Source of the DNA: Streptomyces hundungensis | GTDB lineage: Bacteria > Actinomycetota > Actinomycetes > Streptomycetales > Streptomycetaceae | Assembly: GCF_003627815.1 (NCBI RefSeq) | Contig: NZ_CP032698.1 | Coordinates: 6,572,001 to 6,636,000 of the forward strand | Length of the DNA stretch: 64,000 nt | Direction of reading: 5' to 3' | Shown here: one piece after another, positions 54,872 through 63,845 of the stretch | Numbering within the stretch: position 1 is the first letter of the stretch | How the letters are laid out: each line of letters starts with the position of its first letter | Notes under the pieces: model-generated | Seen by the model: only the letters and a program-made list of their open reading frames with translations | Told to the model about the DNA's origin: nothing | Database searches by the model: none | Made by a program: the position numbers and the translations under genes

Positions 54872-55513
54872 ATGATCACGGCCATCGAACGTACGCCACT
54901 GACCCGGGACTTCTTCGACCGCCCCGTCCTGGAGGTCGCCCCCGATCTCCTGGGCCGCACGCTGGTACGACGCACTCCCGAGGGGCCCCTCGAACTCCGC
55001 CTGACGGAAGTCGAGGCGTACGACGGCCCCAACGACCCCGGTTCCCACGCCTTCCGAGGCCGCACGCCCCGCAACGACGTGATGTTCGGGCCGCCCGGAC
55101 ACGCGTACGTCTACTTCACCTACGGGATGTGGCACTGCCTCAACCTGGTGTGCGGCCCGGCGGGGCGGGCGAGCGGTGTCCTGCTCAGGGCGGGGGAGAT
55201 CGTGGTGGGCGCCGATCTGGCCCGCTCCCGGCGGCTCTCGGCCCGCCATGACAAAGAACTGGCCAAAGGCCCGGCCCGGCTGGCCACCGCGCTCGATGTC
55301 GGCCGCCCCTTGAACGGCGTGGACGCGTGCGACGGGCCCGAGGCCCCGCTCTCCGTCCTTACGGGCACCCCTCCCCACCCCGACCAGGTACGCAGCGGCC
55401 CCCGCACCGGCGTCGGCGGCGACGGGGCTCCGCACCCCTGGCGCTTCTGGATCTCGGACGACCCCACGGTGAGCCCCTATCGCGCCCATCAGCCCCGCAA
55501 ACGCCGAACTTGA
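54872..55513 (+). CDS. DNA-3-methyladenine glycosylase (AAG/MPG family)
   Basis: This 213-aa protein has [38 protein letters not shown] (catalytic Glu in EVEAY), [15 protein letters not shown] and [10 protein letters not shown]. It removes alkylated purines from DNA. There is no clear ribosome site; TACGCT at 54858-54863 lies 8 bases before the ATG, so the mRNA may be leaderless. An rrn promoter-like sequence overlaps its stop. Confidence 0.93.
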
Positions 55514-55538
55514 CTCGGCCTCGAGCGGCGCCTAACGT
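55510..55538 (+). promoter_or_regulatory. Promoter-like sequence TTGACT-17-TAACGT
   Basis: TTGACT at 55510-55515 and TAACGT at 55533-55538 have the ideal 17-base spacing. It overlaps the glycosylase stop codon and is the most upstream promoter candidate of the rrn operon. Confidence 0.55.
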
Positions 55539-55560
55539 ATCCCGAGCCGCTTGAGACGGG

Positions 55561-55674
55561 CCCTGCTGTTCAGCATCCCCAAGCGACATCCACTACCTAC
55601 GATCGAACCCTGACGGGTCTCAATTTCGGCATGCCGAAATTCGAACTCGAATGACTCGATTATGAACAGCAGGG
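55561..55674. repeat. Nested inverted repeats upstream of the rrn leader
   Basis: CCCTGCTGTTCA (55561-55572) and TGAACAGCAGGG (55663-55674) are exact complements 90 bases apart. Between them lies the perfect 20-bp palindrome AATTTCGGCATGCCGAAATT (55622-55641). The left arm is inside the region that would be transcribed from the 55510 promoter. Confidence 0.65.
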
Positions 55675-56061
55675 GAAACCCGCTAAAGTAGTGGACACGC
55701 CGAAAGGGAAACGCGAAAGCGAAGATCTCGAAGCGTTCCCCATTCCGACGGGGAATCGGACACGAAAGCGTCTGATAGAGTCGGGAACACGAAATACCGA
55801 AGGGAAGCGCCCGGAGGAAAGCCCGAGAGGGTGAGTACGAAGGAAGCGTCCGTTCCTTGAGAACTCAACAGCGTGCCAAAAGTCAACGCCAGATTGACAA
55901 CCCCGTATCCACTCCGGTGGATCGAGGTTCCTTTGAAAAGTCCTGTCGACCTTCACGGTCGGCAGGCGATTACACAGCGAGGACGCTGTGGACGGGCCAC
56001 CTTATTCCGGTGGTTCCGTCCCGCTCTTACGTGATGTGTGCACCCGATTACGGGTAAACAT
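55675..56061 (+). promoter_or_regulatory. rrn promoter and leader region
   Basis: This AT-richer stretch has the conserved Streptomyces rrn leader. -10-like hexamers are TAAAGT at 55684-55689 and TAGAGT at 55776-55781, indicating tandem promoters; their -35 elements are weak. TTGAGAACTCAACAG at 55857-55871 matches the actinobacterial boxA-like antitermination sequence, repeated in the 16S-23S spacer. Stems before 16S (around 55945-55975 and 55990-56030) are probable RNase III processing sites. Confidence 0.6.
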
Positions 56062-60999
<4,938 letters not shown>

Positions 61000-61103
61000 C
61001 AGTTGCTCGCGTCCACTGTGTTAGTTCTGAAGCAACGAACAGTTGCTGGTTGAGCAGAACCCACTTAATTGAAAAGTGTGCTTGTTCGCTCGAAACCGAT
61101 AGG

Positions 61104-61222
61104 GTTTCGGTGGTCATAGCGTTAGGGAAACGCCCGGTTACATTCCGAACCCGGAAGCTAAGCCTTTCAGCGCCGATGGTACTTCAGGGGGGACCCTGTG
61201 GGAGAGTAGGACGCCGCCGAAC
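61104..61222 (+). rRNA. rrf: 5S ribosomal RNA
   Basis: GTTTCGGTGGTCATAGCGTT to GGACGCCGCCGAAC, about 119 bases, with CCGAACCCGGAAGCTAAGCC in the middle. The terminal stem (GTTTCGGTGG with CCGCCGAAC) pairs. It lies about 105 bases after 23S and just before the rrn terminator. Confidence 0.96.
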
Positions 61223-61232
61223 AATATTTATG

Positions 61233-61275
61233 GACCCTTGGTCCCAGCGTTCACGCTGGGACCAAGGGTCTTTTT
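61233..61275 (+). terminator. rrn operon terminator
   Basis: A 17-bp perfect stem, 61233-61249 (GACCCTTGGTCCCAGCG) with 61254-61270, has a TTCA loop and TTTTT after it, a strong intrinsic terminator that separates the rrn operon from the 61359 gene. Confidence 0.95.
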
Positions 61276-61358
61276 GTTTTTCCGCTTTGTTTTGCCGAAG
61301 CGCGTCGGGCAGCCGACTGCGCGAGAATGACTGTAGTACCCGAAGACTAGGAGTCACG

Positions 61359-63845
61359 ATGTCCACCAACTCTCCCGACGATCGTCCGGAGCGCGAGCCG
61401 CGCCGTCAGGATGGTGGCGACCGGGGCGGCTACCGCGGTGGCCGAGACGACCGCGGTCCGCGTCGTGACAACGACCGCGGTTGCTACGGCGGGCGTCGTG
61501 ACGACAGTCGCGGTGGCGCGCCCAGCGGTGGCTCCTCCGGCGGTGGGTACCCCCGCCGCGACGACCGCGGCGGTCGCCCCGCCGGCGGCGGCAGCTCGTA
61601 CGGCCGTCGCGACGACCGTCCGGCCCCCCGTCGCGATGACGACCGTGGTGGTTTCCGTCGCGATGACAACCGCGGTGGTGGCGGCGGTTTCCGTCGTGAC
61701 GACAACCGGGGTGGATCTGCCGGTGGTGGCAGCTCGTTCGGGCGTCGTGACGACCGTCCCGCCCCGCGCCGTGACGACAACCGCGGTGGTGGCGGCGGCT
61801 CCTACGGTCGCCGTGACGACAACCGTGGTGGTGGCGGCGGTTTCCGTCGTGACGACAACCGGGGTGGTGGCGGCGGTTTCCGTCGTGATGACAACCGTGG
61901 TGGGTCTGCCGGTGGTGGCAGCTCCTTCGGGCGTCGTGATGACCGTCCGGCTCCGCGTCGGGACGATGACCGTGGTGGGTTCCGTCGTGATGACAACCGC
62001 GGTGGGTCTGCCGGTGGTGGCAGCTCCTTCGGGCGTCGTGATGACCGTCCGGCTCCGCGTCGGGACGATGACCGTGGTGGGTTCCGTCGTGATGACAACC
62101 GCGGTGGGTCTGCCGGTGGTGGCAGCTCCTTCGGGCGTCGTGATGACCGTCCGGCTCCGCGTCGGGACGATGACCGTGGTGGGTTCCGTCGTGATGACAA
62201 CCGCGGTGGGTCTGCCGGTGGTGGCAGCTCCTACGGGCGTCGTGACGACCGTCCGGCCCCGCGCCGCGACGACAACCGCGGTGGTGGCGGCAGCTCGTAC
62301 GGGCGTCGTGACGACCGTCCCGCCCCGCGTCGCGATGATGACCGTGGTGGGTTCCGTCGTGACGACAACCGCGGTGGTGGCGGCGGTTTCCGTCGTGATG
62401 ACCGTCCGGCGCCGCGCCGTGACGACAACCGTGGCGGCGGCGGCTCGTACGGGCGTCGCGACGACCGTCCCGCCCCGCGCCGCGATGACGACCGTGGCGG
62501 GTTCCGTCGCGATGAGCGTCCGGCGCCGCGCCGTGACGACGACCGTGGTGGGTTCCGTCGTGATGACAACCGTGGTGCTGGCGGCGGCTCGTACGGACGT
62601 CGCGATGAGCGTCCGGCTCCCCGTCGGGACGACGACCGGGGTGGCTACGGCGCCCGGCGTGACGACCGTCCGGCTCCGCGCCGCGACGACGACCGTGGTG
62701 GGTTCCGCCGTGACGACCGGGGCGACCGCGGTGGCTACCGTGGGCGTGAGGACCGTCCGGCCCCCCGTCGCGACGACGACCGGGGTGGCTACGGGCGTCG
62801 GGACGACCGGGACCGGGATCGTGACCGCGAGCCCGTCAAGCGGTTGCCGATCGACGAGGACGTCACCGGTGACGAGATCGACGCCGATGTGCGTCAGGAG
62901 CTGATGAGCCTGCCCAAGGGTCTCGCCGAGGAAGTGGCGTGCAACCTGGTGATGGTGGCGCGGCTCATCGACGACGAGCCCGAGCAGGCCTACGCCTACT
63001 CCCGCATCGCGCTGCGGCTCGCCTCCCGCGTCGCCGCCGTCCGCGAGGCCGCCGGCTTCGCCGCGTACGCCACCCAGAAGTATTCGGAGGCGCTCGCGGA
63101 GTTCCGTGCCGCGCGTCGGATGACCGGCTCGGTCGAGCTGTGGCCCGTCATGGCGGACTGCGAGCGCGGCCTCGGTCGTCCCGAGCGGGCGCTGGCGATG
63201 GCCGGCGAGCCCGAGGTGCAGAAGCTCGACAAGCCCGGCCAGGTCGAGATGCGTCTCGTCGCGGCCGGTGCGCGCCGGGACATGGGGCAGCTGGACGCGG
63301 CCATCGTGACCCTCCAGAGCCCCGAGCTCGCGTCGAACTCCGTACAGCCGTGGACCGCGCGACTGCGCTACGCGTACGCCGACGCGCTGCTGGCCGCGAC
63401 CCGTGAGGACGAGGCCCGCGAATGGTTCGCCAAGGCGCTTGAGGCGGACAAGGACGGCTCGACCGACGCCTCCGACCGGCTCGCCGAGCTGGACGGGGTC
63501 GACTTCGTCGACGCGATGGCCGAGAACCACGACGTCGACGCGGACGCCGAGCTCGAAGCGGACGACGACCTCGACGCGGCGCGTGGTGAGGTCGAGGACG
63601 CCCCTGAGTTCGACGACGAGGGCGAGGAGGAGGACGACTTCGAGGGCGACGACTCCGATGTCGTCCGCGCCGCCGAGGTGGTCGACGCGGACGAGGTCAT
63701 TGACGCCGACCTGGTGGAGTCCGCGCCGAACGAGGCCGTTCCGTCGGTGGACAAGGCCGAGAAGGCCGACAAGGCCGAGAAGGCCGACAAGGACGAGAAG
63801 GTCGACAAGAGCGGCCGGAGCGAGCAGAGCGACAAGGACGCCTGA
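61359..63845 (+). CDS. RG/RD-rich repeat protein with TPR-like domain and acidic tail
   Basis: This 828-aa protein has three parts. Residues 1-490 are an Arg/Asp/Gly-rich disordered region with about 13 copies of a RPAPRRDD motif plus RGGFRRDDNRGG spacers. Residues about 495-715 form paired helices (TPR-like: LAEEVACNLVMVARLIDDEP, AGFAAYATQKYSEALAEFRAARR, YADALLAATREDEAREWFAKALEAD). The tail, about 720-828, is Asp/Glu-rich and ends in KAEKADK repeats. RG-rich regions commonly bind RNA. Its place 84 bases after the rrn terminator suggests a ribosome- or RNA-related role, which is inference. AGGAG is 6 bases before the ATG. Confidence 0.85.
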   Translation: MSTNSPDDRPEREPRRQDGGDRGGYRGGRDDRGPRRDNDRGCYGGRRDDSRGGAPSGGSSGGGYPRRDDRGGRPAGGGSSYGRRDDRPAPRRDDDRGGFRRDDNRGGGGGFRRDDNRGGSAGGGSSFGRRDDRPAPRRDDNRGGGGGSYGRRDDNRGGGGGFRRDDNRGGGGGFRRDDNRGGSAGGGSSFGRRDDRPAPRRDDDRGGFRRDDNRGGSAGGGSSFGRRDDRPAPRRDDDRGGFRRDDNRGGSAGGGSSFGRRDDRPAPRRDDDRGGFRRDDNRGGSAGGGSSYGRRDDRPAPRRDDNRGGGGSSYGRRDDRPAPRRDDDRGGFRRDDNRGGGGGFRRDDRPAPRRDDNRGGGGSYGRRDDRPAPRRDDDRGGFRRDERPAPRRDDDRGGFRRDDNRGAGGGSYGRRDERPAPRRDDDRGGYGARRDDRPAPRRDDDRGGFRRDDRGDRGGYRGREDRPAPRRDDDRGGYGRRDDRDRDRDREPVKRLPIDEDVTGDEIDADVRQELMSLPKGLAEEVACNLVMVARLIDDEPEQAYAYSRIALRLASRVAAVREAAGFAAYATQKYSEALAEFRAARRMTGSVELWPVMADCERGLGRPERALAMAGEPEVQKLDKPGQVEMRLVAAGARRDMGQLDAAIVTLQSPELASNSVQPWTARLRYAYADALLAATREDEAREWFAKALEADKDGSTDASDRLAELDGVDFVDAMAENHDVDADAELEADDDLDAARGEVEDAPEFDDEGEEEDDFEGDDSDVVRAAEVVDADEVIDADLVESAPNEAVPSVDKAEKADKAEKADKDEKVDKSGRSEQSDKDA
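61899..62204 (+). repeat. Three identical 102-bp tandem repeats inside the RG-rich gene
   Basis: Units start at 61899, 62001 and 62103; each encodes 34 residues (181-282 of the protein). By eye the three are identical at every base, including third codon positions. A further, diverged copy starts at 62205. This shows a very recent in-frame expansion or gene conversion. Confidence 0.85.

Follow-up and report, generated by a model that had tools for sequence, protein, structure and literature searches.

LAF-1, DDX4, nucleolin and fibrillarin possess disordered regions of the RGG/GAR type. The protein described here comprises 828 amino acids and is encoded on the forward strand at 61359..63845 of a 64,000-nucleotide stretch of Streptomyces hundungensis DNA, the whole of which is referred to as the window. 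It has in common with these regions the Arg-Gly repeats with interspersed Phe and Tyr, and its charged fraction is 0.49. In contrast to them, it contains more Asp together with RD and RRDD words, and it displays a predicted TPR core where the RGG/GAR systems have a helicase, RRM or methyltransferase domain. The combination of an acidic stretch with a GAR-like region is also reminiscent of nucleolin-like proteins; however, no RRM is among the four Pfam matches obtained for the protein at E up to 1. The TPR adaptors TTC0263, YrrB, PilF/PilW and MamA are among the top structural matches of the core and share its solenoid fold. To our knowledge, these adaptors lack both a long Arg-rich region and a linkage to rRNA operons (rrn), and the common fold shows no function. 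In S. coelicolor, the locus tags of the gene might be SCO1789/SCO1790.

In mycobacteria, the protein resembles Rv1691 of M. tuberculosis and MSMEG_3754 of M. smegmatis, a likeness which consists of the TPR annotation, as given in the accessible part of PMC7092591, and of the gene order rather than of a sequence comparison. RNA polymerase beta of M. smegmatis has been purified after formaldehyde treatment, and MSMEG_3754 is contained in the resulting high-confidence list, with no DNA recovered together with it according to the accessible text (PMC7092591). Since this list of 275 proteins is enriched for the term ribosome, as far as the available sections state (PMC7092591), it is not specific. 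The recovery without DNA renders nucleoid organisation, a role considered in the preliminary description, less likely. MSMEG_3754 is also listed in a ClpC1 interactome table (PMC10433963, available part), and a further mention of Rv1691 gives no function in the text at hand (PMC11754781). An RNA-binding datum was found for no member of the family in the literature consulted, including the accessible parts of PMC7092591 and PMC10433963, and a literature search whose coverage stops short of most subscription journals and of supplements returned no report on the function of the gene or its linkage to rrn.

Domain organization of the protein

The N-terminal part of the protein (residues 1–490; 61359..62828, forward strand) is an Arg/Gly/Asp-rich repeat region as judged by composition, with 28% Arg, 24% Gly and 20% Asp. 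The preliminary description had reported 490 residues of balanced Arg/Asp/Gly repeats; the repeats are present, but instead of being charge-balanced they are mildly basic, with a net charge of +32. RGG and RG motifs cluster in this low-complexity region in the manner by which RGG-motif proteins are defined, and the whole protein contains 27 RGG, 37 RRDD and 11 DRPAPRRDD motifs. Within 100-residue windows of the repeats the fraction of Arg, Gly and Asp amounts to 0.67–0.79. Among 10587 such stretches from 45 further ORFs predicted in the window, the highest value is far lower, at 0.48, so that the region is not of ordinary composition. On the basis of its composition it is taken as disordered.

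A tandem array of four 102-bp copies is situated inside the repeat region (61878..62284, forward strand). Copies 1 to 3 differ at a single third-position base, and copy 4 deviates at nine bases, two of which alter residues. The 11 DRPAPRRDD units, which were chosen for their identical peptide, have nine distinct DNA spellings, indicating that silent sites changed around a constant peptide. The Pfam model RDM3_C (PF23348) matches the repeats at 61725-62315 of the window with 45.2 bits, above its cutoff, a match to the RDM3_C/SPT5L type with its beta-solenoid domain. Since the same model also matches the tail of a DEAD-box helicase (44 bits, see below), we take the match as one of composition, likely an artefact which could mislead annotation.

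The repeats are followed by the conserved core (residues 491–714; 62829..63500, forward strand). Structure prediction for the core gave a mean pLDDT of 95 and a pTM of 0.88, with 14 helices arranged in helix-turn-helix pairs that form a solenoid, and mostly TPR proteins were found at the top of both structure comparisons. No Pfam TPR profile exceeded its curated cutoff in the protein (best TPR_19, 17.4 versus 25 bits), and the core is thus predicted to be a TPR solenoid from its fold alone. The C-terminal tail (residues 715–828; 63501..63842, forward strand) is composed of an acidic Asp/Glu stretch with a Lys/Asp/Glu-rich end and has a net charge of −36. Pfam searches of the 828 residues revealed no recognised RNA-binding domain, and neither a transcription-factor domain nor an enzymatic domain was found in the protein. 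The helical, TPR-like core of the preliminary description is thus borne out by the predicted structure; the tail, which had been described as strongly acidic and Lys/Glu-rich, is indeed acidic, but mainly through Asp and Glu, with Lys being frequent only in the last 38 residues.

Position beside the rRNA operon

On the forward strand of the window, genes for 16S rRNA (56061..57586), 23S rRNA (57876..61000) and 5S rRNA (61106..61222) precede the TPR gene, which starts with the ATG at 61359 and is separated from the 5S end by 136 bp. A strong intrinsic terminator (61232..61271, forward strand) is located in this gap, in agreement with the earlier statement that the gene lies directly after the rrn terminator. 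Terminator-like sites between 5S and start, counted without a shuffled control, were found at gaps of up to 500 bp in 77 of 79 Streptomyces-group loci, in 20 of 29 loci from the rest of the class and in 5 of 10 outside the class. The leader before the ATG has a consensus in 76 aligned Streptomyces-group loci, which includes CGAGAATG, GGTA, CCCG, GAC-AGGAGTCAC, the Shine-Dalgarno sequence AGGAG (61349..61353, forward strand) and GAGAAT (61323..61328, forward strand), a possible −10 element. A promoter scan of the leader found none; based on the conserved consensus, the TPR gene of the Streptomyces group nevertheless likely has its own promoter.

For a survey of this arrangement 161 loci were assembled, comprising the present one, 20 more of the genus, 40 from the rest of the class, 80 from named genomes and 20 of the 81 matching outside the class. 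The named-genome set represents the best 80 of 549 confirmed loci and is nearly all Streptomyces; the loci other than this set and the present one were selected mainly for long contigs and hence non-randomly, and the Streptomyces group accounts for 101 of the 161. A same-strand rRNA operon is located upstream of the TPR gene in 130 of the 161 loci; in 27 the sequence breaks off at a contig or locus edge no more than about 730 bp from the start, and four are without an operon. The distance is at most 500 bp in 118 of the 130 (median 127 bp there) and 538 to 4937 bp in the remaining 12. By sample, the operon was seen in 21/21 loci of the genus including the present one, 61/80 named-genome loci (19 cut), 32/40 of the class (6 cut) and 16/20 outside it (2 cut). 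Whether the gene stays beside an rRNA operon in other genomes had been raised in the preliminary description, which regarded a lack of positional conservation as speaking against its proposal; such a lack is contradicted by these counts. Nearness to the operon is, however, not required, since the gene is kept with more than 5 kb of rrn-free upstream sequence in L164 and L177 (outside the class) and in L188 and L189 (one genus of the class). In L174, a 16S match alone was found upstream.

In order to provide a scale, the first close gene on the same strand was taken at other rRNA operons of the genome, three of seven of which supplied such a control, and searched in 24 genomes for rRNA within 1.5 kb of the best match. 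rRNA was found beside the three controls in 8/8, 8/8 and 4/7 Streptomyces genomes and in 0/16, 0/13 and 0/2 genomes of other genera, the control genes being unequally conserved and the HAD best matches outside Streptomyces, at 31–35% identity, perhaps not orthologous. The TPR gene is beside rrn in 16 of 16 genomes of other genera (15 within 1.5 kb, one at 2.6 kb), the 24 genomes having been picked post hoc from loci with an operon beside the TPR gene, to the exclusion of those of L188 and L189, so that the comparison gives a scale and not a rate.

Duplications also involve both elements. Genome G076 contains two TPR copies, each behind an rRNA operon. The two regions have in common a 6.68-kb block of 99.2% identity which comprises the operon with the TPR gene and breaks off 23 bp short of the end of the TPR ORF. 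Because the duplication stops there, the pair can apparently move apart from the rest of the block. Two genomes of the same genus (G154 and G329) likewise have the gene in pairs, each copy being next to 5S and 23S, at 97 and 99% identity over the stretch covered. In G086, a member of another family, the two copies have diverged and each is accompanied by rRNA matches, and G278 contains one full copy with rRNA in addition to a partial match at a contig start. The near-identical pairs L185/L186 (from G076), L238/L243 and L239/L244 give the impression that the gene belongs to the rrn unit.

The wider neighbourhood commonly reads DNA-3-methyladenine glycosylase, rrn, TPR gene, DUF1015, HAD, SCP2-like, TlyA, NAD kinase and RecN, and in many loci members of this series are missing, inverted or interrupted by insertions. 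The SCP2 label of the gene before TlyA is our assumption, and a Pfam search of the SCP2-like stretch gave no match. TlyA, an rRNA methyltransferase family in NCBIfam, is found near the TPR gene in 60 of the 80 loci besides the named-genome set and the present one, within the stretch covered (17, 15, 10 and 18 per group of 20, the 10 being outside the class). Between glycosylase and rrn, a tyrosyl-tRNA synthetase is encoded in L067, L079 and L187 according to Pfam, and in L078 as judged from its opening sequence only. In the window, the glycosylase gene (54872..55513, forward strand) is separated from the operon by 55514-56060, which, unlike the situation in these four loci, is too small for a tyrosyl-tRNA synthetase.

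Further downstream, outside the window, the HAD gene (G000:C1 about 6637370-6638440; L011 1671-2740) aligns with the protein of a relative in two different frames, the change of frame lying near L011 2333, and from its sequence looks either frameshifted or affected by an assembly error. A siderophore-type ABC transporter (L011 2808-5763) lies between the HAD and SCP2-like genes; a complete or partial form of it is present in many Streptomyces loci, but it was not found in L063.

Rv1692 of M. tuberculosis is presumably the HAD gene. TlyA, NAD kinase and RecN follow downstream in the Rv1691-type order here as well as in L079 and L187, the M. tuberculosis gene list being lprJ, Rv1691, Rv1692, Rv1693, tlyA, ppnK and recN in the accessible part of PMC3072309. 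In mycobacteria with a second operon, rrnB is positioned behind tyrS, as the available portions of PMC10218544 and PMC6089878 state, and the tyrosyl-tRNA synthetase upstream of rrn in L079 and L187 agrees with this position. We infer that L079 and L187–L189 are mycobacterial; their N-terminal regions of about 44–89 residues and the lack of an acidic tail distinguish them from the present protein.

Distribution of the core and the Arg-rich leader

The homologous core was detected in 56 of 61 relatives, in 269 of 296 genomes of the class (104 of 114 genera) and in 102 of 246 genomes of a phylum sample, 81 of these being outside the class and four matches being weak (E about 1e-4 to 1e-3). Among the matches listed, the nearest named species is S. 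xanthochromogenes with 96% core identity, and a Streptomyces sp. strain reaches 97%. The design is not restricted to Streptomyces, as core and Arg-rich leader extend across the class and into part of the phylum sample. The long RD/RG repeats are a lineage-dependent enlargement.

Regions N-terminal of the core measure at least 40 residues in 152 of the 161 loci, and in 151 of these 152 Arg accounts for at least 15% (13% in L176). The median Arg content is 29.5% in these regions and 9.2% in the cores. Nine regions are shorter than 40 residues, with L174, L177 and L179 devoid of Arg and L154 cut by an edge; outside the class, the Arg leader is sometimes very short or absent. Arg strongly prevails over Lys, the pooled ratio being 13878:226 in N-terminal regions as against 3408:1064 in cores. 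For the 21 loci whose GC content (calculated for the whole locus, rRNA included) is below 60%, the ratios are 1276:40 and 437:158, and as the bias is kept there, GC content alone is seemingly not its cause.

The length of the N-terminal region, which is approximate because starts were assigned heuristically (L044 has no clear start), reaches 687 residues at most, and its lower end, found outside the class, is a few residues. With kinship ignored, it correlates with genome size (Spearman 0.61) in 49 of 60 loci outside the genus, the other 11 having an edge-cut N-terminus, being the second copy of a genome or being without rrn outside the class. It also correlates with the net charge of the tail, again with kinship ignored, at −0.67 in 39 of 41 loci (two with uncertain N-terminal ends dropped). 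Group-wise, within the 130 loci with an upstream operon, the coefficients are −0.42 in the Streptomyces group (n = 82) and −0.51 in the class (n = 32), compared with a non-significant −0.16 outside the class (n = 16). Charge compensation between N-terminal region and tail, with a correlation within the class and no significant one outside, was set aside.

When the genome was searched with the whole protein, a cutoff of E 0.001 left a single further match, namely a DEAD-box RNA helicase, which aligns through its tail (E 5.6e-4). This helicase (L013:3286-5583; G000:C1 about 4143285-4145582) carries a long RRDDRP/GGF tail which is similar to the TPR repeats in composition and words. Its Arg codons are likewise rich in CGT, the share being 62% in the tail, 61% in the repeats and 8% in 34 other ORFs of the window. 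The RG-rich tail of the helicase is, however, C-terminal on an enzyme. RG-rich tails are found on helicases in several other genera; of 30 genomes, 18 gave a helicase hit with an E-value of 1e-120 or less, and 14 of these entered a comparison of the wording of both tails after four with tails below 50 residues had been dropped. Pooled over the 14, wording matched within genomes (p = 0.033, 0.004 and 0.002 for 2-, 3- and 4-mers), in contrast to the eight outside Streptomyces (p = 0.73, 0.26 and 0.21), and matched wording was consequently rejected as general evidence.

Possible role in ribosome biogenesis

Taken together, the position, the co-duplication, the TlyA neighbour, the Arg-over-Lys bias and the proximity to RNA polymerase without DNA point to rRNA. 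We tentatively propose, at a probability of roughly 45%, that the protein is a putative RNA-binding scaffold which, in actinobacteria, serves the synthesis or processing of rRNA or the early steps of ribosome assembly. Binding of RNA, most likely nascent or precursor rRNA, would occur via many weak contacts of the Arg-rich N-terminal region, and the TPR core would dock protein partners. Where an acidic tail is present, RNA and the tail may be competitors for the Arg region, as suggested by the correlation of N-terminal length and tail charge within, though not outside, the class. The long RGG/RD repeats of Streptomyces may provide a valency high enough for the putative RNA-binding protein to cluster, and such clustering is possible in vivo. 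A further step, in which the protein is an actinobacterial counterpart of a nucleolar scaffold, encoded alongside the rRNA operon, that brings maturation enzymes and the RGG/RD-tailed helicase together with nascent rRNA in clusters at active rRNA operons, the strength of the clusters depending on repeat length in lineages with large genomes, appears distinctly unlikely.

Several observations count against a scaffold for rRNA. The protein has no recognised RNA-binding domain, terminator-like sites part the operon from the gene in most Streptomyces loci, and the Arg leader is short or absent in some loci outside the class. The wording of helicase and TPR repeats is unmatched outside Streptomyces, the control genomes were picked post hoc and less than half of the other operons furnished a control. 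Moreover, linkage can persist as inherited synteny, as the gene retained without an operon in L188 and L189 illustrates. The whole arrangement might accordingly be an old block (glycosylase, TyrS, rrn, TPR, HAD, TlyA, NAD kinase, RecN) in which the TPR protein has no connection with rRNA and serves as an adaptor between proteins. The block is in large part conserved, and the appearance of MSMEG_3754 in the ClpC1 table (PMC10433963, available part) would suit an adaptor; this explanation is unlikely, however, given that the G076 duplication holds only operon and TPR gene, that three other rrn neighbours lose the linkage outside Streptomyces, and that Arg-rich leaders are nearly universal among N-terminal regions of at least 40 residues.

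Indirect support for a role related to RNA comes from the Arg-over-Lys bias, the similar helicase tail and the mycobacterial co-purification with RNA polymerase, as far as the accessible part of PMC7092591 describes it. An alternative is a general RNA-granule scaffold that acts with the RGG/RD-tailed helicase in mRNA turnover or stress, with rRNA being no special target. The composition of the helicase tail, its words in Streptomyces and the shared Arg codon habit favour such a granule, which we regard as somewhat unlikely since it leaves the wide rrn linkage and the co-duplication unexplained and the two tails match no better than chance outside Streptomyces. An accessory of RNA polymerase on rRNA operons, for instance in elongation or antitermination, would account for the position and for the recovery of MSMEG_3754 with crosslinked RNA polymerase beta; it is very unlikely in view of the missing transcription-factor domain and of the recovery without DNA (PMC7092591, accessible part). 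An origin of the repeats by slippage, with hardly any function other than solubility, is suggested by the 102-bp tandem copies, a sign of recent expansion, and by lengths between few and about 690 residues among lineages, but is extremely improbable, as the Arg bias is maintained in 151 of 152 N-terminal regions, lower-GC loci included, and units chosen for identical peptides differ at silent sites.

Compared with the three control neighbours, a protein gene that stays directly behind an rRNA operon across taxa this distant is conspicuous. If the protein acts on rRNA, as the proposed scaffold would, the phylum to which antibiotic producers and mycobacteria belong would have a ribosome-biogenesis factor that has so far gone unstudied, and the graded Arg-rich lengths on one conserved fold would provide a natural series for testing the function of such regions in bacteria.
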